Assembly: GCA_003602415.1 (NCBI GenBank)
Contig: QQSK01000010.1
Location: 4,691-68,690 of the forward strand
Length of the DNA: 64,000 nt
From: Candidatus Poseidoniales archaeon
GTDB taxonomy: Archaea; Thermoplasmatota; Poseidoniia; Poseidoniales; Poseidoniaceae
Direction: 5' to 3'
Shown: positions 18,535 to 28,768 of the stretch, one piece after another
Position numbering within the stretch: the first letter of the stretch is position 1
Layout: every line of letters begins with the position of its first letter
Notes under the pieces: generated by a model
Seen by the model: the letters and a program-made list of their open reading frames with translations, nothing else
Told to the model about the DNA's origin: nothing
Databases searched by the model: none
Translations under genes and position numbers: made by a program

Positions 18535-19212
18535 TCACTCTGGTGAGAATATTCGTGAGATTGGACCCTGTACTTCGATTTCTTCTTCGGGAAGCCACTC
18601 TCTTTCCAATAATGTCGAATCTTGTTGTTCACGTTCTCTAGCATCTTCAAACTCATCATTAGATTCATTCACAGCATTATTGAGAGATATCGCCTGATTT
18701 ATTATTGCTAATTGCTTTGACAAAATCGCCTCATCTAAATTGGAATCCCAAGTCGATAATATCGACAAATCATCATCTGTTCTATGAACTACCCATCCGG
18801 TTAATGCATCCTTAACCAATTTTAGACGATGTATTCCTGGGTCAACCCATTTATTAGAAAAATTCACCATTACTTCTGACTTTCCAACTGGTTCTGACTC
18901 CATAAATGGATGATTCAAATTGACTGCCAGTGGCAGATTTGATATCGATTTGAAATTTCTGAAAACAAGGAAATCACTAAGCAATATGATTAGCAAAATG
19001 AAAACCAAATCAATGAACCAATAAAGGGCTAGAAGTACCGTAAATGTCAAGATCAGAGAAATCATAATTTTCTCTTTCAATACAGTACTTCGAAACTCTT
19101 CTCCTAATGGAGTGTTCGAGAAAGAAATCAGGCCTCGCGGCTCGTCCATATCCTCGCCAGTAGCAATAAGGACATGAAACCCTCGTTCTAATGCTATTTG
19201 CACCCCCATCAT
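18535..19212 (-). CDS. Membrane protein of unknown function
   Basis: A 225-residue protein with one long hydrophobic hairpin (about 50-80, IMISLILTFTVLLALYWFI followed by LVFILLIILLSDFLVF) flanked by hydrophilic domains. The C-terminal half is acidic and may form a coiled coil (QLAIINQAISLNNAVNESND). Two adjacent ATG codons exist at 19212 and 19209; either fits. It is divergent from the DUF835 gene at 19254, leaving 41 bases for both promoters. The family is not recognised. Confidence 0.6.
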   Translation of the reverse strand: MMGVQIALERGFHVLIATGEDMDEPRGLISFSNTPLGEEFRSTVLKEKIMISLILTFTVLLALYWFIDLVFILLIILLSDFLVFRNFKSISNLPLAVNLNHPFMESEPVGKSEVMVNFSNKWVDPGIHRLKLVKDALTGWVVHRTDDDLSILSTWDSNLDEAILSKQLAIINQAISLNNAVNESNDEFEDAREREQQDSTLLEREWLPEEEIEVQGPISRIFSPE

Positions 19213-19235
19213 TCAAGAAGGGTACAATCACCAAC

Positions 19236-19250
19236 CACCCCGTAGGGGTG
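19236..19250 (+). repeat. Hairpin with GTA loop directly before a start codon
   Basis: CACCCCGTAGGGGTG is a perfect 6-bp stem with loop GTA, ending three bases before the ATG at 19254. The 3' arm GGGGTG is the only ribosome-binding-like sequence near this start, so pairing would hide it. The same CCCGTAGGG core occurs in the hairpin at 48126-48144. Confidence 0.4.
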
Positions 19251-19253
19251 CCC

Positions 19254-20936
19254 ATGGTAGAGTTGCCGCAAGGTATTATCGTCGAAGAAAGACGTGGTGG
19301 CGCAGGCATCCTCACCACTCTGGTAAACGATATGATCAAACTCAACTCAAATGGGTATATTCGTACAGAGAGAACGCCGACTGAGGCTATGCCGAGAGTA
19401 GGCCAAGTCATAATCAATAATGGTGAAATATCAGCGGCAATGCATGAATCTGATGCGATTTTGGAGGGTGTTGAAGCTCTGCTTGAAATCGAAACTGATT
19501 GCATGGAACTGGATTGCAAACTACAATTGGTGGAAGATGTTGATGTTCATCGTATTTTGGACCTACATCCCAATGCCAAATTGAATATTGAAACACCTGA
19601 AGAAAGTAAGTCATCAGAATGGTGGAAGGACATCAGTAATCATTCCAATAGTTGGACCAGATCTAGTAGATTGCCAACGATTGAAGCCACAATTGAAGCA
19701 CCAGAATTCGTTAAGGCAAAGGCTGCATCAATGGTACACAAGCATGTTCATGGGAGCACATTGCTCAAACCAGGGTGTGTATTTTCAAACGAGAATGATG
19801 GATTGTTAACTCTAGCATCAAATTTGAAATCTCACGGCAAACCTCTTCTTGTAATATCGAGAAGGATTCGAGAAGAACTAGTTGTGAATTTTGGCCTGCC
19901 TGCAGATGATTGTTTGTGGCTTTCCCAAAAAGATGGAGAAGGCATCCAATTCGTAGACCTGGATGCAATCAAGGGCACTGTGTACGGCTTTTTAGAAGGT
20001 AATTTACGAGCCGTATTACTATTGGATGGTTTAGAATATTTAGCGAACATTTGTGGTTCAAAACCAGTTATCGATATGGTTCGTGAGTTAGGAGACAGAA
20101 TGAGATTTGAGGATGATTGCCTATTGATTTCCTTCGACAAATCTGCATGGACAAAATCTGAATCGGCACAATTACTGAGAGTGGCACCTCACTTGGACGC
20201 TGAAACAATTTCTGCATGGAATTCCGACCCCGATTCATTACTTGATCATCCATTAATGTCGCCACCTACCGAAGAGGAATTGCTTAGATTGGCTGCTTAT
20301 CTAGAAGCTAACACTCCTGAAACTTTTGTCGAAGAGATCGTTGAGGAAGCGGAGCCTGAGCCGGTAGAACCAGAAATCATTGAAATTGAAATCGTTGAGG
20401 AGGAGCCTGAAATCATTGAACAGGTAGCCGAGCCAGTGATTGAAGAAAAGGTTCCAGAAGTAAAGAAGGGGCCAAGAAGCCCTCAGAGAGTAAAGCGCCG
20501 TACCGTAAAGCGCCAACAAATCTTGTCTGAGAGAGAGATGAAGTTGGCAGGATTGGCTGCCGCCAAGAATGAGCGAGAAATTGGCGATTTACCCCCTGGT
20601 AAATCTATTCCAAAAACTCCAATCGGTAAAGCAAGAGATGTCGAATTACCATCGATTCCAGATATTATTCCTACCGAGCTAAGTAATGCTGTTAATCAAA
20701 GAATCAATTCAAAGAATCTAAGATTGCCTGAAACTAAACTTGGCCCAAAAACTGTTGAGCGCCCGTCCAAAGCCAAACCATCAAGCAAGAACGTAATCAG
20801 TCCACTGGCTGCTAGAGGAGTTGAAATAAGAAGAAATGTTTCAAAACGCTCACAGGCATCTAGTGTTCAGCAAAAAGAAATTGATGTTGACAAAGAATTG
20901 GATTCGTGGAAAGAAGAATTGGAGGAAGAAAATTGA
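19254..20936 (+). CDS. DUF835-domain protein with long disordered C-terminus
   Basis: About 560 residues. The first 100 (LPQGIIVEERRGGAGILTTL onward) form a small domain of unknown type. Residues about 180-320 match the archaeal DUF835 pattern: KPLLVISRRIREELV, DDCLWLSQ, a hydrophobic strand ending VLLLDGLEYL, then a helical tail. DUF835 occurs mainly in archaeal signalling proteins, sometimes with receiver or PAS domains; none is seen here. Residues about 360-400 are low-complexity Glu/Pro/Ile/Val and the rest is basic and disordered. The start at 19254 is chosen because upstream codons have no similarity and overlap the divergent gene. Its stop overlaps the next gene, a DnaA-like ATPase, suggesting they work together. 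Confidence 0.75.
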   Translation: MVELPQGIIVEERRGGAGILTTLVNDMIKLNSNGYIRTERTPTEAMPRVGQVIINNGEISAAMHESDAILEGVEALLEIETDCMELDCKLQLVEDVDVHRILDLHPNAKLNIETPEESKSSEWWKDISNHSNSWTRSSRLPTIEATIEAPEFVKAKAASMVHKHVHGSTLLKPGCVFSNENDGLLTLASNLKSHGKPLLVISRRIREELVVNFGLPADDCLWLSQKDGEGIQFVDLDAIKGTVYGFLEGNLRAVLLLDGLEYLANICGSKPVIDMVRELGDRMRFEDDCLLISFDKSAWTKSESAQLLRVAPHLDAETISAWNSDPDSLLDHPLMSPPTEEELLRLAAYLEANTPETFVEEIVEEAEPEPVEPEIIEIEIVEEEPEIIEQVAEPVIEEKVPEVKKGPRSPQRVKRRTVKRQQILSEREMKLAGLAAAKNEREIGDLPPGKSIPKTPIGKARDVELPSIPDIIPTELSNAVNQRINSKNLRLPETKLGPKTVERPSKAKPSSKNVISPLAARGVEIRRNVSKRSQASSVQQKEIDVDKELDSWKEELEEEN

Positions 20937-22684
20937 GCATTAAGAATCAAGAAAAACTCCAACTTGCACTTGCAAATGCCAGACAATCGCTGGGTATTGA
21001 ATCAAATTTAGGCAGACCCGCACTGTCAAAATTGAATAAACTGAGAGGAGTCCAAGGTGCAAAAGACACTAGAGAGGGAGACCTAATCACAAGGACTGGA
21101 GTGAAAACTAGGCCGGTTTTTGACATTGTCGCCGACCAGGTATTAGGTCAAACACCTGAATGGAAACCAAGTATCGATTTAGAAAAAGGCGATAGTACTC
21201 TAGCACAAATTGCTGCAAAACGAATCAGTGAAATGAGAGAGAAACAAGTCACTGATGAAATCGATGAAGAACTATTAGGAGATTCACTTGGAATTTTGAA
21301 AGATGGCCGTCCCATTTGGGCTGAGGTCTTAGACACCCAACGTGGATATTCCACCAATTCAACGGATTATGGTTTCAAGGACCCATCATTTAGACCAGAT
21401 TGGCCACCTGTTCAGCACTTGTCAGACCATAATACATGGAAAACATGGCATGTCGTAGAAGAAAACGTCAGAGCATCTAACGCTTGTGAAAAGGTGATTG
21501 AGAAACCTGGAATAACCATGAATCCATTACTAATTCTAGGAGAGAGTGGATGTGGGAAATCACATATTTTGAGCGCCTCAGTTCAGGCGATGATTCGAAG
21601 ACAGGATGGGAATGTGCACCTTCTGTCTGCAACGGCCATGAGAGGATGGGAATCCTTGCCCAATGGTTGGCAGGAAGCTGTGTCTCATGCGAACTTAATC
21701 GCTATCGATGACCTTCACCTTGCAGAAGAACAAGTAGCTACTGAAATCGGATTGATGATTGATTATGCATTGAACATGGGAGTTCAGGTCATAGCAACAT
21801 CTAGAGTTGATTCAAATCAGTGGCAAGCAAGACGATTGTGGGAAGTAATGCGATCAGCGACTAGCATTTGGATTAGTAAACCAAGTTCTGCTTCCTTGAT
21901 TACTCACCTACGCAGATTATCAAGTGGCAGAGCATTACTACTAGACGACTCAATGTTAGCAAGAATTGTGAAACATGGAGATGGAAGTTGGAGAAGTACC
22001 GATGCTTGTTTTGAGAAGATTGCACTTTCTATCGAATCAGGTGAAAGGATTGTCAATGCTGATGACATTACGCAAATCCTCGAAGAAAGACCGGTTGCAA
22101 TGAGTGAACGTGACGAGTTCATACAGCGAGAAAACTTGGAAGATATCGCTTCTAGAGTAATCAACGAAACACTCGACCACGTATACACTAGGGCAGACCC
22201 AGCAGGCGTTGACCTGAAAACACAATTGCCCGAATTAAATGATGATTGGGAAGTTCCTGAGTTGACTATTGAAGAGCAAGATGAACTTCATGCAGTTTTG
22301 ACAAGTGAAAATTTAACACCCCATGTTACCACAACTTTGACCGTTGATGAAAAAGAAGAATTCTTGGTTCAAAGAGACAAAATAATCAGTGGTTTGGATA
22401 AAGTCAGAGCAATAGAAACCAGTTCTGGAATAAACCAAATGGCGGAAGAAATGTTCGAAGAAATGAGTAGAAATCATTTGAAGCAGGCCACAGAGTTAGC
22501 AGAATTGGAAGAAGAAATGATTGCATTAGCAAACAAAAGCAAGGATGCTACCGTTGATGAATTGATAGAAATTGCCGACAGAGTTGGTGAAATTGAAGTC
22601 ATTTTAGGAAATGTCTCACCTGCACCAGAATTTGCAACTTTGACTCCGATTAAGGTACTCAAGCCACTAGGTGGAAATGAATGA
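20933..22684 (+). CDS. DnaA-like AAA+ ATPase
   Basis: About 583 residues. Residues about 195-380 form an AAA+ module resembling the DnaA/Hda group: Walker A GESGCGKSH (203-211), Walker B LIAIDDLHL (about 255-263), and IATSRVDS as a sensor 1 strand. A helical lid follows (SWRSTDACFEKIALSIESG). The DnaA domain IV helix-turn-helix is not visible; the last 200 residues are acidic and helical, ending with a coiled coil (about 515-560). TTG at 20933 is chosen because GGAGG (20921-20925) lies seven bases upstream and the codon overlaps the DUF835 stop; GTG at 20906 is the alternative. Archaea replicate with Orc1/Cdc6, so a role in replication initiation is unlikely and the function is unknown. Confidence 0.72.
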   Translation: MSIKNQEKLQLALANARQSLGIESNLGRPALSKLNKLRGVQGAKDTREGDLITRTGVKTRPVFDIVADQVLGQTPEWKPSIDLEKGDSTLAQIAAKRISEMREKQVTDEIDEELLGDSLGILKDGRPIWAEVLDTQRGYSTNSTDYGFKDPSFRPDWPPVQHLSDHNTWKTWHVVEENVRASNACEKVIEKPGITMNPLLILGESGCGKSHILSASVQAMIRRQDGNVHLLSATAMRGWESLPNGWQEAVSHANLIAIDDLHLAEEQVATEIGLMIDYALNMGVQVIATSRVDSNQWQARRLWEVMRSATSIWISKPSSASLITHLRRLSSGRALLLDDSMLARIVKHGDGSWRSTDACFEKIALSIESGERIVNADDITQILEERPVAMSERDEFIQRENLEDIASRVINETLDHVYTRADPAGVDLKTQLPELNDDWEVPELTIEEQDELHAVLTSENLTPHVTTTLTVDEKEEFLVQRDKIISGLDKVRAIETSSGINQMAEEMFEEMSRNHLKQATELAELEEEMIALANKSKDATVDELIEIADRVGEIEVILGNVSPAPEFATLTPIKVLKPLGGNE

Positions 22685-23183: not shown

Positions 23184-23205
23184 TAGGTGTTACAAAACAC
23201 ACCTA
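23184..23205 (+). repeat. Inverted repeat after the YkgJ gene, upstream of citrate synthase
   Basis: TAGGTGT and ACACCTA are perfect 7-bp arms separated by eight bases. The repeat lies 38 bases after the YkgJ stop and 75 bases before the citrate synthase start, outside the putative promoter. It could be a regulator site for citrate synthase or a transcript end for the upstream cluster. Confidence 0.35.
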
Positions 23206-23237
23206 AACTGAATGTGATGCTCAAAATTAGCGTCGTC

Positions 23238-23275
23238 CTTATACCGTGGTGGCTTGTCCCTGCGGTTGGTGGTGA
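23238..23275 (+). promoter_or_regulatory. Putative promoter and ribosome-binding site of citrate synthase
   Basis: CTTATACC at 23238-23245 resembles an archaeal TATA box and would place transcription start near 23267. GGTGA at 23271-23275 ends four bases before the ATG at 23280, which decides this start over the upstream in-frame ATG codons. Confidence 0.45.
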
Positions 23276-23279
23276 AATC

Positions 23280-24446
23280 ATGAGTGACGAAGAGTCCCTA
23301 CTTGACTTGACTACTGCACACCTGAATACAGGTATGCGTGGAGTTCCGGTTGGAACCTGTAGAACATCATATGTTACACCTGGTGAAGGTGTCCATTACT
23401 GTGGCTATCCTATTAGTGAATTAGCCATGATGTCTCCTGAAGATATCGTCTATCTTCTGTTCCACAAAGAACTTCCAAACATCGATCAATCTGTTGAGTT
23501 TCGCAACGAACTTCAGTCAAGAGGAAAACTCCCAGATGGAGTGGAAGAAGTTTTGGCTACACTGCCTTGTGAGGGACACCCCATGGACTGGCTTTCGATT
23601 GGTATTCACACACTAGGAATGCTGGGCGGTGTTGATGATTGGCGAGAAGATGCAATGAATCTAATCGCCAGAATGCCACGATTGATGGGACTTATTTTCC
23701 GTTACAGAGAAGGTCGAACGGACAATATCCCAGAGGATGATTTGTCACTACCTTTGGTTGGAAGATTTACCAACACTCTTGACCTAGTAGATGTTGACAA
23801 GGCGGTAATGAATCGTGTTCTATCGACTTATCTTGTTTTACACATGGACCATGGGGGAGGAAATCTATCTACATTCACTGGCAAAGCAGTAGCTAGTGGT
23901 CATGCTACTGTGTACTCATCTATGGCAGGTGCAATGAATGCTCTTTCTGGACCACTACACGGCCGAGCGAACCAATCATGTTTCGAATTTGTCAAGCGAA
24001 TTGGAACTTCGGATCCTGCTGAGGTAGAGAGATTCGTTAGAGGAGAATTAGAAGAAAAGCGACCTGTATTCGGATTTGGACACGCTGTATTGCGCTCAGA
24101 AGACCCAAGGGCAACTGCACAATTCGCATTAGGTGAAGAGATATGCCCTGATGACGAATACTTCAGAATAATTAGAGTTCTAAGGGAAATTGCACCTAAG
24201 GTACTTTCAGAAAATCACAAAATCAGTAACCCGAATGCTAACGTTGACATTGCCAGTGGAACTCTACTTAACTTCGTTGGACTACAGGATGCTGAGTATT
24301 ACACCACTTTCTTTGGATGGGCAAGAGTTGCAGGTATTGGAGCTCAAATCGTTGACGAAAGAACTGTAATGCGTAATGGTAGAGGCATCCCAATCTACCG
24401 ACCAAAGTATATTGCTGAAGAACAAACTCTTCGTCACATTGACTGA
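23280..24446 (+). CDS. gltA: Citrate synthase
   Basis: Condenses acetyl-CoA with oxaloacetate at the entry of the TCA cycle. The 388-residue protein has the family landmarks in order: HMDHGGGNLSTF (active-site His region), GPLHGRANQ, FGFGHAVLRSEDPRA (catalytic His in GxGH) and NVDIASGTLLNF (catalytic Asp), then a C-terminal domain with RVAGIGAQIVDERTV. The usual VY after GxGH is VL here. The frame continues upstream to 23187, but that part is hydrophobic and unlike citrate synthase; GGTGA with four-base spacing fixes the start. The 3' end overlaps the convergent GDPD gene by 13 bases. Confidence 0.92.
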   Translation: MSDEESLLDLTTAHLNTGMRGVPVGTCRTSYVTPGEGVHYCGYPISELAMMSPEDIVYLLFHKELPNIDQSVEFRNELQSRGKLPDGVEEVLATLPCEGHPMDWLSIGIHTLGMLGGVDDWREDAMNLIARMPRLMGLIFRYREGRTDNIPEDDLSLPLVGRFTNTLDLVDVDKAVMNRVLSTYLVLHMDHGGGNLSTFTGKAVASGHATVYSSMAGAMNALSGPLHGRANQSCFEFVKRIGTSDPAEVERFVRGELEEKRPVFGFGHAVLRSEDPRATAQFALGEEICPDDEYFRIIRVLREIAPKVLSENHKISNPNANVDIASGTLLNFVGLQDAEYYTTFFGWARVAGIGAQIVDERTVMRNGRGIPIYRPKYIAEEQTLRHID

Positions 24447-25447
24447 ATAACTGGTCTTGGTGTTTTACCACAGCCTCTGTGGCCGATCATTCTTACCGCA
24501 TTCCAACCTAAAGTTCCATCATTTAATTCATGCCAAGGCGCTACATCTTCAGGCATAATTCCTTCTTTTAGGCCAATCCATTGTTCCTCACTCAGCGGCA
24601 TTGTAGCGGGCCTTAACCATCTCTTGCTACCACAAGGAAGTACCATTTCTGGGTCTGCATAATCTGTGAGCATAGATAATCCTGCATCGAGTAGATTACG
24701 CTCAAGATAAGGATGACCTGGCCAAACATAAACAGGAAAATCTCCTTTGGCTTTCCTCAAGCGCTTCAGGCCTGAACCTTCAAGACCAACCGGCATGCCG
24801 AAATGGAGATATTTCTTGAATCCTTCAAAATAATCTACTGCGCAGGGCATCATTGGTGCTCCTGATTTTTGTTGTGATTTTAGCAACCTCTTGAATGAAT
24901 ACATCATGAACTCAGGCAAGGCTCGAATTCGTTTGCTATTATGTGAGCCTGTTCTGGGAACTATTGGTAGTAATCTCGACCATGGCCGGCTCGAGCCTGA
25001 GAGTTTTGCAACTTTGGCCATAGGTCTGTGGAACGCATAGAAGACTGCTGATTGTTTAGGGATGCCTGCCTCATCAACCATCTCTCCAGCAATTTGCATA
25101 ATTTTGGCCATTCGAGTTGTAGGGTCTTTAGCAATCTGCGGTAGACTTCGCTTTATTTCCAAACATGCCACTTTGGAATGTTCTTGCCAAGGCGTTAACC
25201 ATTCTTTGTCTGACATCAATTTCTCAAAAGAGCAGAAACCTACAGATTCTAGTTCATCCAAGGTCCATTCTTCAACAATTTGAGAACGTCCCTCTAGATT
25301 TTCTTTGGGAATTGACACTGTATGGTCATGATGAACAACTAATTTCTCATCAGCAGTAAGTCGAAGGTCAAATTCTACTCCATCCATTTTTCGCATTGCC
25401 TCAACAAGTGAAGCATGCGTATTTTCTGGAGGAGGACTATATGCCAT
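24434..25447 (-). CDS. Glycerophosphodiester phosphodiesterase-like protein, circularly permuted
   Basis: A 337-residue GDPD-fold protein that would hydrolyse glycerophosphodiesters to glycerol-3-phosphate and an alcohol. The protein begins with SPPPENTHASL, normally found 10-20 residues into the fold, followed by VEFDLRL (metal ligands ExD) and VVHHDHT (catalytic His). The middle has ACLEIKRS and, late, PVYVWPGHP and LSMLTDYADP, the usual last strands. The first strand with the catalytic IGHRG motif is not at the N-terminus but in the last 18 residues (MIGHRGCGKTPRPVIQSM). An upstream in-frame stop lies 14 codons before the ATG, and no HRG is encoded there. All catalytic residues are thus present in permuted order. 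Substrate is inferred from the family. Confidence 0.8.
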   Translation of the reverse strand: MAYSPPPENTHASLVEAMRKMDGVEFDLRLTADEKLVVHHDHTVSIPKENLEGRSQIVEEWTLDELESVGFCSFEKLMSDKEWLTPWQEHSKVACLEIKRSLPQIAKDPTTRMAKIMQIAGEMVDEAGIPKQSAVFYAFHRPMAKVAKLSGSSRPWSRLLPIVPRTGSHNSKRIRALPEFMMYSFKRLLKSQQKSGAPMMPCAVDYFEGFKKYLHFGMPVGLEGSGLKRLRKAKGDFPVYVWPGHPYLERNLLDAGLSMLTDYADPEMVLPCGSKRWLRPATMPLSEEQWIGLKEGIMPEDVAPWHELNDGTLGWNAVRMIGHRGCGKTPRPVIQSM

Positions 25448-25538: not shown

Positions 25539-27299
25539 ATGGCAGAAGACCAACGCGTACGAGGATATTGTGCATATGATTGGGGAAAGAGTGCATTCGA
25601 AACATCGGTTACTACCGCTATATTCCCTGCGTGGTTCGCTTACCTTTTCGCTGAAGCAAACGGTATTTCAACAAAATTCCTAGGTTCGGAATGGACTGCT
25701 GATGCCATGTTTTCTGGAGCTGTGATGGTCGGTGCTCTAATCGTTGCCATTTGTGCACCATCATTAGGAGTAATTGCAGATAGAAGAATGATCAAGATGT
25801 GGTGGCTCAGAACCCTGACATTTGTGGGTTCTATTTCCTGTATTCTGTTAGCACTTTCACCATACCTCGGGGTATCTATGGGTTGGGTTTGGGCATTGAT
25901 AATGTTCATGATCGCAAATGTTGGATTGAATGGAGCAGGAGTATTCTACAATGCTTTACTGCCTCACATGGGTGATGAATCCGAAATGGATGCTATCTCA
26001 AACAAAGCATTTGCTGCAGGATACCTTGGAGGAGGAATACTTCTCGTAGTCCACCTCGGTATGTGGTTGACGCTAGATGGCGGCTGGGTTATTCCATTCA
26101 TCATGGCATCATCCGGATTATGGTGGCTCGGATTTGCTCAAATGACTTTCAAAATGGTTCCAGAACCTCACATAGAAAATGAAATGGAATCGATGGGGCT
26201 AATCGCTTCATCTAAGATGGCTCTGAGTGAAGTCATCTCAACCATGAAAGATATCAAAAGTTTCAGAACTCTATTCATTTACATGTTAGCGTACTTCTGT
26301 TTCATTGATGGAATAAACTCCGTGACAGCATTGGCAGGAGTGTTTGGAATAGTGGTCTTAGGTTTGACGACTACCGGGCTGATTCTAACAATACTAATTA
26401 TCCAGTTCGTTGCAGCACCTGCTGCAATAGGTTTCACAAAATTGGCAGACAAATGGGGCACTAAGAAAGCCTTACAATTCTCATTGGTTTGCTGGTGTGT
26501 AGTCATTGTAGGTGCTCTATCATTTGCGCCACTAGAATTAGAAAAGCATGAGGAATATGATATACAATACACCTGGGATGAAGATGCAGGTGTCTATATC
26601 GTTGAAGCAAGAGAAGGAGTAAACAATATTGCGGCACTTCCAGATGATGACGAACAAGCATGGGCTTTAGACAACGAAGGCATATTACCTGTTGAAGAAA
26701 ATGATGATGTCAAAAGTGCTTATGCGGTTAAATGGGCTTTCGATGAAGATGGAAAACCAATTCCAGTCGAAGTAACTCTAACTGAAGAATCGTTAGCTAA
26801 ATTACAAGCATCAATGGATGAATCCAGATTCTCATACAGCATTGAAGGTGGAGATTTCGATGAGCAAACTGGATTGGGAATTAATCACCCATCCAGCCTT
26901 GGAGATGGCACATTAGACTTCATTCCAGAAACTGCCAGATCGTTGGTTTGGGCTCCACTTGGAATCAGTGTATTCTTCCAATTCCTACTCTTAGGCGTAT
27001 TTGCTGGTGCGCTACTAGGTGGCTCTCAAGGTCTAGCTCGTTCGATGTTTGGACAAATGGTCCCTGAAACAAGATCCGCAGAATTCTTCGGATTCTTCGG
27101 ATTCTTTGGAAAGGTAGCAGCATTACTAGGCCCACTTATCTATTCCTTGATGACAGTCTGGTTTGATTCAAGAGTAGGAATTTTCGCACTCTCAATTTTG
27201 ATTATTGCTGGTGTCTTAATTTTGCGCAAGGTCGATGTTGAAGACGGTATTGCAGTTGCCAAAGCAGAAGATGAAAGAAACCGTTCGGCGGCTGAGTAG
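25539..27299 (+). CDS. UMF1-type major facilitator transporter with large loop insert
   Basis: A 586-residue membrane protein of the UMF1 (Atg22-like) branch of the major facilitator superfamily, recognised by GYCAYDWGKSAFETSV at the start and about 12 hydrophobic segments. A hydrophilic, acidic stretch of about 130 residues (about 340-465, from HEEYDIQYTWDEDAG to FDEQTGLGINHPSSLG) interrupts the second half and looks like an extracytoplasmic domain; ordinary UMF1 proteins lack it. Near the end, FFGFFGFFGKVAALLGPL forms the penultimate helix pair. Members are putative amino acid or peptide effluxers, but the substrate here is unknown. Confidence 0.83.
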   Translation: MAEDQRVRGYCAYDWGKSAFETSVTTAIFPAWFAYLFAEANGISTKFLGSEWTADAMFSGAVMVGALIVAICAPSLGVIADRRMIKMWWLRTLTFVGSISCILLALSPYLGVSMGWVWALIMFMIANVGLNGAGVFYNALLPHMGDESEMDAISNKAFAAGYLGGGILLVVHLGMWLTLDGGWVIPFIMASSGLWWLGFAQMTFKMVPEPHIENEMESMGLIASSKMALSEVISTMKDIKSFRTLFIYMLAYFCFIDGINSVTALAGVFGIVVLGLTTTGLILTILIIQFVAAPAAIGFTKLADKWGTKKALQFSLVCWCVVIVGALSFAPLELEKHEEYDIQYTWDEDAGVYIVEAREGVNNIAALPDDDEQAWALDNEGILPVEENDDVKSAYAVKWAFDEDGKPIPVEVTLTEESLAKLQASMDESRFSYSIEGGDFDEQTGLGINHPSSLGDGTLDFIPETARSLVWAPLGISVFFQFLLLGVFAGALLGGSQGLARSMFGQMVPETRSAEFFGFFGFFGKVAALLGPLIYSLMTVWFDSRVGIFALSILIIAGVLILRKVDVEDGIAVAKAEDERNRSAAE

Positions 27300-27337
27300 T
27301 GAAAACGCTCATAGCCATAGGCTATAGGGGGGTAATC

Positions 27338-28768
27338 ATGAGCCCTTACTCGGTGATGATGGGATTAATCCTAATTCTCACACCGATTATCTGTTGGTTG
27401 TTTACAATTGGCAGAGAACATACTCGTACTCCTTTAGGAAAAGCATTCCAAGTTATCCATGAAAAAAGGTACTACCTTCACGCATTGGGTTACCTTTTCA
27501 TCATCAAATGGAAAGCGACAACAGATGATTTGAACGAACCCATCAAAATCAGAACCGGAAACTGGACCGAATGGATTTACTCAATTGAAGGAAATGCAAC
27601 CTTATGGGTTCAAGATACGTTTCAGAATGCTTGGCTAACCGAGTTCTTAAATTTCCATTATCTGTTCATTTACCTGTTCTTAATCTACATCACAACAGTA
27701 TATTTTGCATATGTCGGAGAAAGAGACATGACAGATAAAGTCACTCTGAATTATCTTCTAATTTACGCATTGGCTGTCCCATATTATTTATTCTTCAATG
27801 TGGAGGTAACCTCATCTTGGATTCCAGGAATGGAAGCACTGCTGTATCATGATGGATGGTATACAGTATTCTATGCCACTCACGACCCGTTAGATAATGC
27901 AGTTCCGTCATTGCATGTTGCAATTCCATTTGGAATCATATTGCTAAATTGGCTACATTGCAAGGAGAAGAATATCAAAATGAGAGAATGGACACATTGG
28001 CCATATCATCTATTTATTGTCATCAATACAATTCTATTTGTATTCACAATTGCTTATCTTGGAATACACTGGCTTGTCGACATCCCACTAGGTATGATTG
28101 TTGGAGGTATCGGAGCGTTATTCATACACCACTTGCAACCTAGGATGCGTAATGATCACGGACCAATGTTCAAAGGAGTAACCAAGAAGAAAGTTGTTAA
28201 TCACACATTCTGGGAAGGAGCTGCAACATTAGTAATCTTATTCCTTGTTCTTTCAGCAGTCTCATACCAAGAGAACAATATTGACGACCGTGTCTCAATG
28301 CGCCTTGGTGGAGGTGATTCAACATACGAGATATTGACTCCATTGAGTTTTGAGGATGAAGTGACTACTTCGATAACCAATTTGGATGATTCATTGACAC
28401 TACAGTTCACGATTATTTGGGTTGAAGAATCAGTTTCTGCCATGGACCAAGGAGTGATAAATTGGTCTGAATTAGAGAAAAATCAAACAATTTATGAAGT
28501 TGGTCCAGGAGATACTCTGGATGTCAAAGTTACTGAACCAAAATTATGGCATCTTGTCATTCTGCATAATGGAGCCGACAAAACAGACGATGTCTTAGAA
28601 GTTAGAATAATCAACGATTATGGAGATGATGAAATGTGGAAGGCTATCGCACTTTCAATTCCTTCAATGTGGATGACCGGTTTCGTAATCCACAGATTAA
28701 AGCGACTAAAACAAGCTGGCCGCTCGTTTATCGATTCTACCCCATCCCATTTGTGGGAGGAAGAATGA
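27338..28768 (+). CDS. PAP2-superfamily membrane protein (IPC synthase-like) with C-terminal beta domain
   Basis: A 476-residue membrane protein. Six or so helices in residues 1-285 hold the PAP2/inositolphosphorylceramide synthase motifs: NAVPSLHVA (catalytic His about 193) and YLGIHWLVDIPLG (second His and Asp). Such enzymes cleave or transfer lipid phosphate head groups. After another helix (about 295-315) comes an extracytoplasmic beta-rich domain (about 320-440) and a last short helix with a basic tail. The ATG at 27338 follows a GGGGGGTAATC segment and is preferred to the GTG at 27299. The gene ends directly before tatC. Confidence 0.78.
   Translation: MSPYSVMMGLILILTPIICWLFTIGREHTRTPLGKAFQVIHEKRYYLHALGYLFIIKWKATTDDLNEPIKIRTGNWTEWIYSIEGNATLWVQDTFQNAWLTEFLNFHYLFIYLFLIYITTVYFAYVGERDMTDKVTLNYLLIYALAVPYYLFFNVEVTSSWIPGMEALLYHDGWYTVFYATHDPLDNAVPSLHVAIPFGIILLNWLHCKEKNIKMREWTHWPYHLFIVINTILFVFTIAYLGIHWLVDIPLGMIVGGIGALFIHHLQPRMRNDHGPMFKGVTKKKVVNHTFWEGAATLVILFLVLSAVSYQENNIDDRVSMRLGGGDSTYEILTPLSFEDEVTTSITNLDDSLTLQFTIIWVEESVSAMDQGVINWSELEKNQTIYEVGPGDTLDVKVTEPKLWHLVILHNGADKTDDVLEVRIINDYGDDEMWKAIALSIPSMWMTGFVIHRLKRLKQAGRSFIDSTPSHLWEEE

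Follow-up and report, generated by a model that had tools for sequence, protein, structure and literature searches.

A probable natural circular permutation of a glycerophosphodiester phosphodiesterase in the archaeal order Poseidoniales

INTRODUCTION

Glycerophosphodiester phosphodiesterases (GDPDs) with PDB entries include those of Pyrococcus furiosus (7E0V), T. kodakarensis (4OEC), and T. tengcongensis (2PZ0). In the P. furiosus enzyme, the HR-EN-ExD-HD motif forms the active site, two histidines serve as base and acid, and the metal is bound by Glu44, Asp46, and another Glu later in the chain; eight parallel strands make up the barrel, and the HD strand is not one of them (PMC4926365). Here, we describe a gene from the window, meaning the whole 64-kb stretch of DNA analysed, whose product shares with these three GDPDs the HRG, EN, ExD, HD, ExK, W, and TD elements and the metal ligands. 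It differs from them in being rotated by one strand, in a new linker of 51 to 94 residues, and in having about 40 residues more in the latter half of the barrel.

GH70 glucansucrases are circularly permuted barrel enzymes. For Escherichia coli MalS, circularly permutated domains are reported (PMC10223318). Both resemble the protein described here in being natural permutations of a TIM-barrel enzyme, but they belong to unrelated families and neither is a GDPD. To our knowledge, natural permutations that move a strand with a catalytic residue and are then fixed throughout an order are uncommon. The preliminary description of the locus knew of no described natural GDPD permutation, and none was described in the literature searched, which covers few of the subscription journals; PMC3482391 mentions GDPD solely in a toxin and immunity entry, and no passage on permutation was seen in the text searched. 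We regard the protein as a permuted form of the GDPD family that is new.

RESULTS

The HRG motif lies at the C-terminal end of the reading frame

The gene (24434..25447, minus strand) encodes 337 amino acids (aa) plus the stop codon. The protein runs from MAYSPPPENTHAS at the N terminus through MDGVEFDLRLTADEKLVVHHDHT, CLEIK, VYVWPGHP, and LTDYADP to VRMIGHRGCGKTPRPVIQSM before the stop, its C terminus being MIGHRGCGKTPRPVIQSM. As first described, the chain opens at the PENT element and carries IGHRG within its last 18 residues. All features below are on the minus strand, and conservation refers to 46 distinct full-length proteins of the family.

The PPENT element (residues 6 to 10, 25418..25432) is N-terminal here, whereas in ordinary GDPDs it follows the HRG; E8 is kept in 44 of the 46 proteins and N9 in 45 (one has X). 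The ExD metal-ligand motif E25-F26-D27 (25367..25375) corresponds by motif to Glu44 and Asp46 of P. furiosus GDPD (PMC4926365), and H40-D41 (25325..25330) supplies the second catalytic histidine, position 41 being D or N. In the profile alignment, E97-I98-K99 (25151..25159), with the third metal ligand and a conserved Lys, falls on canonical ElK; W242 (24722..24724), in the strand VYVWPGHP, on canonical WTVN; and T261-D262 (24662..24667), of the last strand, on canonical ITDxP. A new linker (residues 266 to 316, 24500..24652) leads from the last barrel strand to the relocated strand 1 (residues 317 to 337, 24437..24499). The linker has 51 aa here and up to 94 aa in relatives, and several of its residues are invariant among the homologues. 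The GHRG motif with the catalytic histidine H323 (residues 322 to 325, 24473..24484) is the only GHRG in the six frames of the window. Residues E25, D27, H40, E97, K99, F139, W242, D262, H323, R324, and G325 are invariant (46/46), which bears out the earlier statement that all catalytic residues were kept.

The Pfam GDPD profile (PF03009) matched residues 7 to 79 with 42.4 bits (cut-off, 23.6 bits). This match began at profile position 9, since the first profile positions, which bear the HRG, are missing at the N terminus. Annotation by Pfam alone thus hides the missing motif. A strong NCBIfam equivalog match was not found for this protein.

The rotated order is conserved among relatives

Homologues were found in 57 of 61 related genomes. 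A set of 57 loci was read in detail; they represent two families and about 20 genera of one order and include some contigs counted twice. In 52 of them, the HRG lies 8 to 18 residues from the C terminus, and it lies upstream of PENT in none; the position of the motif is thus not accidental. The other five loci gave partial matches, being fragments or truncated at contig ends. Compared with six congeners, dN/dS was much less than 1, both over the entire gene and over the last 21 codons; with synonymous sites nearly saturated, only the direction of this value is meaningful.

These data bear on the trivial explanation that an ordinary GDPD was given a wrong start codon or was disrupted by a frameshift or misassembly. 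The frame is closed by an in-frame stop 14 codons upstream of the ATG, and none of the three minus-strand frames contains an HRG within the 300 nucleotides (nt) upstream. An N-terminal extension encoding HRG, looked for in the relatives, was not found, and the same order recurs in dozens of independently assembled genomes of both families with conserved synteny, which excludes an assembly error. We consider an artifact of this kind exceedingly improbable, and the earlier view that the start codon is correct holds.

The relatives include a few departures. In G039 (locus L125, G039:C3:17200-19600), the open reading frame (ORF) stops just before the HRG, and no HRG is present in any nearby frame. 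About 35 C-terminal residues appear to be deleted, whereas in G043 and G058, from the same genus, the match includes the last part of the profile. The gene may be decayed, the assembly faulty, or the tail losable. G052 (L123, G052:C11), inside the order, has a canonical GDPD only, while its genus-mate G312 (L107, G312:C51) has both a canonical and a permuted one; the canonical GDPD of this genus has about 280 aa (AHRGGSIIFPENT). A few genomes gave no match, several of these genomes being incomplete.

One contig labeled as bacterial (NZFX01000059.1, Phycisphaerae bacterium MED703) carries the permuted GDPD gene of Poseidoniales at 78% identity. The contig is probably misnamed or part of a mixed bin.

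Profile alignments support a circular permutation

The decisive test was a profile-profile alignment of the permuted family with 26 canonical GDPDs from the phylum. In native order, the alignment scored 124.3. When the C-terminal 24 columns were put first, the score rose to 145.3 and the alignment began at the canonical HRG. In control experiments, shuffling the 24 columns 200 times gave a mean of 124.9 (standard deviation, 1.8; maximum, 133.8), and putting other 24-column blocks first gave at most 136.3. The C-terminal block by itself matched canonical columns 5 to 25 (P = 1.9e-5). With a doubled profile, a single path ran from the C terminus of copy 1 into copy 2 (positions 368 to 671 against template positions 4 to 236).

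Rotation was also applied to single proteins in the Pfam search. The match of the rotated window protein reached profile position 1, and it scored 45.1 bits instead of 42.4 (a shuffled control scored 42.5 bits). In three of four proteins, the match reached position 1 after rotation, and it did not do so in the shuffled control; the gain was 7.6 bits for the homologue at locus L053, 2.1 bits for L057, and almost nothing for L039. Profile comparison gave an E value of 1e-12 with 2pz0 and, after rotation, of 4e-20 with a canonical archaeal profile.

The protein has the same elements as a GDPD in rotated order, with new termini and with the old ends joined. The proposal of an intragenic circular permutation is supported by this test with its shuffled controls, by the order-wide conservation and synteny, and by a sister lineage of normal order (see below). 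The proposed route, duplication followed by loss of the ends, is plausible, but it left no trace: the linker showed no similarity to GDPD sequence (P = 0.43 against canonical GDPDs and P = 0.11 against the protein's own core).

The permuted genes have a single origin within the order

Poseidoniales are abundant marine archaea; the window and its relatives are assigned to this order because the named relatives retrieved by sequence belong to Candidatus Poseidoniales. A profile built from 28 permuted sequences was searched against 293 genomes of the phylum, and full-length matches were obtained in about 79 genomes, all of them Poseidoniales and from both families. Outside the order, the matches were almost all confined to the PENT-HD region, which GDPDs of normal order share; one weak match, in G202, fell on the linker region. 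In the PF03009 search, GDPDs outside the order began at profile position 1, whereas the permuted ones mostly began at positions 6 to 11. No relatives were found on viral contigs. The permuted GDPD can serve as a single-gene marker for Poseidoniales.

In the sister family, which belongs to the same class, the GDPD is of normal order and starts with MSPRIISHRG (G310, L094 5227-5913). It has 228 aa with the HRG at residues 8 to 10 and is encoded outside the citrate synthase neighborhood described below. A FastTree phylogeny, calculated from canonical proteins together with rotated sequences of the permuted family, united the latter in one group, and this protein was the nearest canonical relative by distance; the branch to the permuted group is long, and the tree is supportive only. 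Because an unpermuted sister lineage is identifiable, the permutation is open to dating, and its consequences for folding and activity can be examined.

The citrate synthase gene (23187..24446, plus strand; Pfam, 7.6e-84) is convergent with the permuted GDPD gene and overlaps its stop end by 13 nt. Because only about 10 nt of the GDPD coding end are included in the overlap, citrate synthase does not impose the HRG. The tail-to-tail pairing is kept across the order, in both families, and the permuted genes are therefore orthologous and descend from one ancestor. Most simply, the permutation arose once, before the two families diverged, and was then inherited vertically.

In the window's family, no GDPD apart from the permuted one was found in most genomes. 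Many genomes of the second family have an additional GDPD-like ORF of about 190 aa (MKNLGHRLGASGTKLENT), of normal order and without the C-terminal half of the barrel (e.g., L093:5521-6096, minus strand).

Proposed active site and barrel of the permuted enzyme

By alignment, the motif residues of P. furiosus GDPD correspond to H323, E8-N9, E25, D27, H40, and E97. Both catalytic histidines (H323 and H40) and the three acidic metal ligands (E25, D27, and E97) are thus present, all of them invariant. Similarity to PF03009 and to GDPDs in the PDB (to 1.3e-12) is also present. The linear order HR(X)nEN(X)nExD(X)nHD is absent, as HR comes last in every complete member, and it appears only after rotation. 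Because this order fails while every residue expected of a GDPD is in place, we file the protein, as judged from its sequence, as a permuted homologue of the GDPD family and not as an ordinary member.

In our reading, the HRG segment would be strand 1 and the TD segment the last strand. The ancestral order would have been strand 1 (HRG), PENT, strand 2 (ExD), HD, ExK, and further elements up to W and TD. The permuted chain starts at PENT, passes the remaining barrel elements as far as the TD strand, and, after a new, conserved linker of about 50 to 90 residues, ends with strand 1 and the HRG. Where a barrel is closed, its last strand lies next to the first, and a C-terminal strand can therefore complete it. 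By means of the 51- to 94-residue linker, strand 1 would insert between the strands of TD and ExD, bringing H323 together with E25, D27, H40, and E97 in a single active site. Glycerophosphodiesters would then be hydrolyzed by the usual metal-dependent two-histidine mechanism.

Two AlphaFold models, based on an alignment of seven sequences, had mean pLDDT values of 42.5 and 47.6; the C-terminal HRG region was below 30, and the tail was left unplaced. The best four Foldseek matches of both low-pLDDT models were GDPDs, with TM-scores of 0.3 to 0.4. An unplaced tail and a linker long enough to reach another molecule would also fit a domain-swapped dimer, in which a barrel is completed by strand 1 from a second chain. 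No sign of a dimer was found, and closure within a single chain, between strands that are barrel neighbors, is simplest; we regard a domain swap as quite unlikely.

The extra residues compared with canonical GDPDs, the long branch, and the lack of a strong equivalog match would be in line with a GDPD-derived protein that lost the diesterase function and uses its barrel in another role. Such a loss is nevertheless very improbable, as the catalytic residues are all invariant throughout the order, unlike in relaxed proteins. We conclude that the protein is very probably a naturally circularly permuted GDPD whose HRG strand would complete the barrel; barrel closure, activity, and substrate are what we infer from the sequence.

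Gene neighborhood and possible substrate

The membrane lipids of Poseidoniales are an open question (PMC6962369). For this reason, and because the permuted enzyme is the only GDPD found in the majority of genomes from the window's family, its substrate is of interest. A broader scenario is speculative and, taken as a whole, rather unlikely: a single event in the stem of Poseidoniales that gave rise to a clade-defining GDPD, a linker that adds a cap above or below the barrel, and a substrate range suited to unusual membrane lipids.

In the window, the permuted GDPD gene is adjoined by genes for an ATG22-like MFS transporter and a PAP2 phosphatase (25539-28768). In four genomes from other genera of the family, the transporter gene was not found beside it and the PAP2 gene is nearby (directly adjacent in three). 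In the second family, the transporter is present without PAP2. Since neither neighbor is constant across the order, deducing the substrate from them was dropped. A DUF835 protein (19170-20933), followed by a DnaA-like ATPase-domain protein (20891-22681), is encoded in the same region of the window, and both are conserved in the neighborhood.
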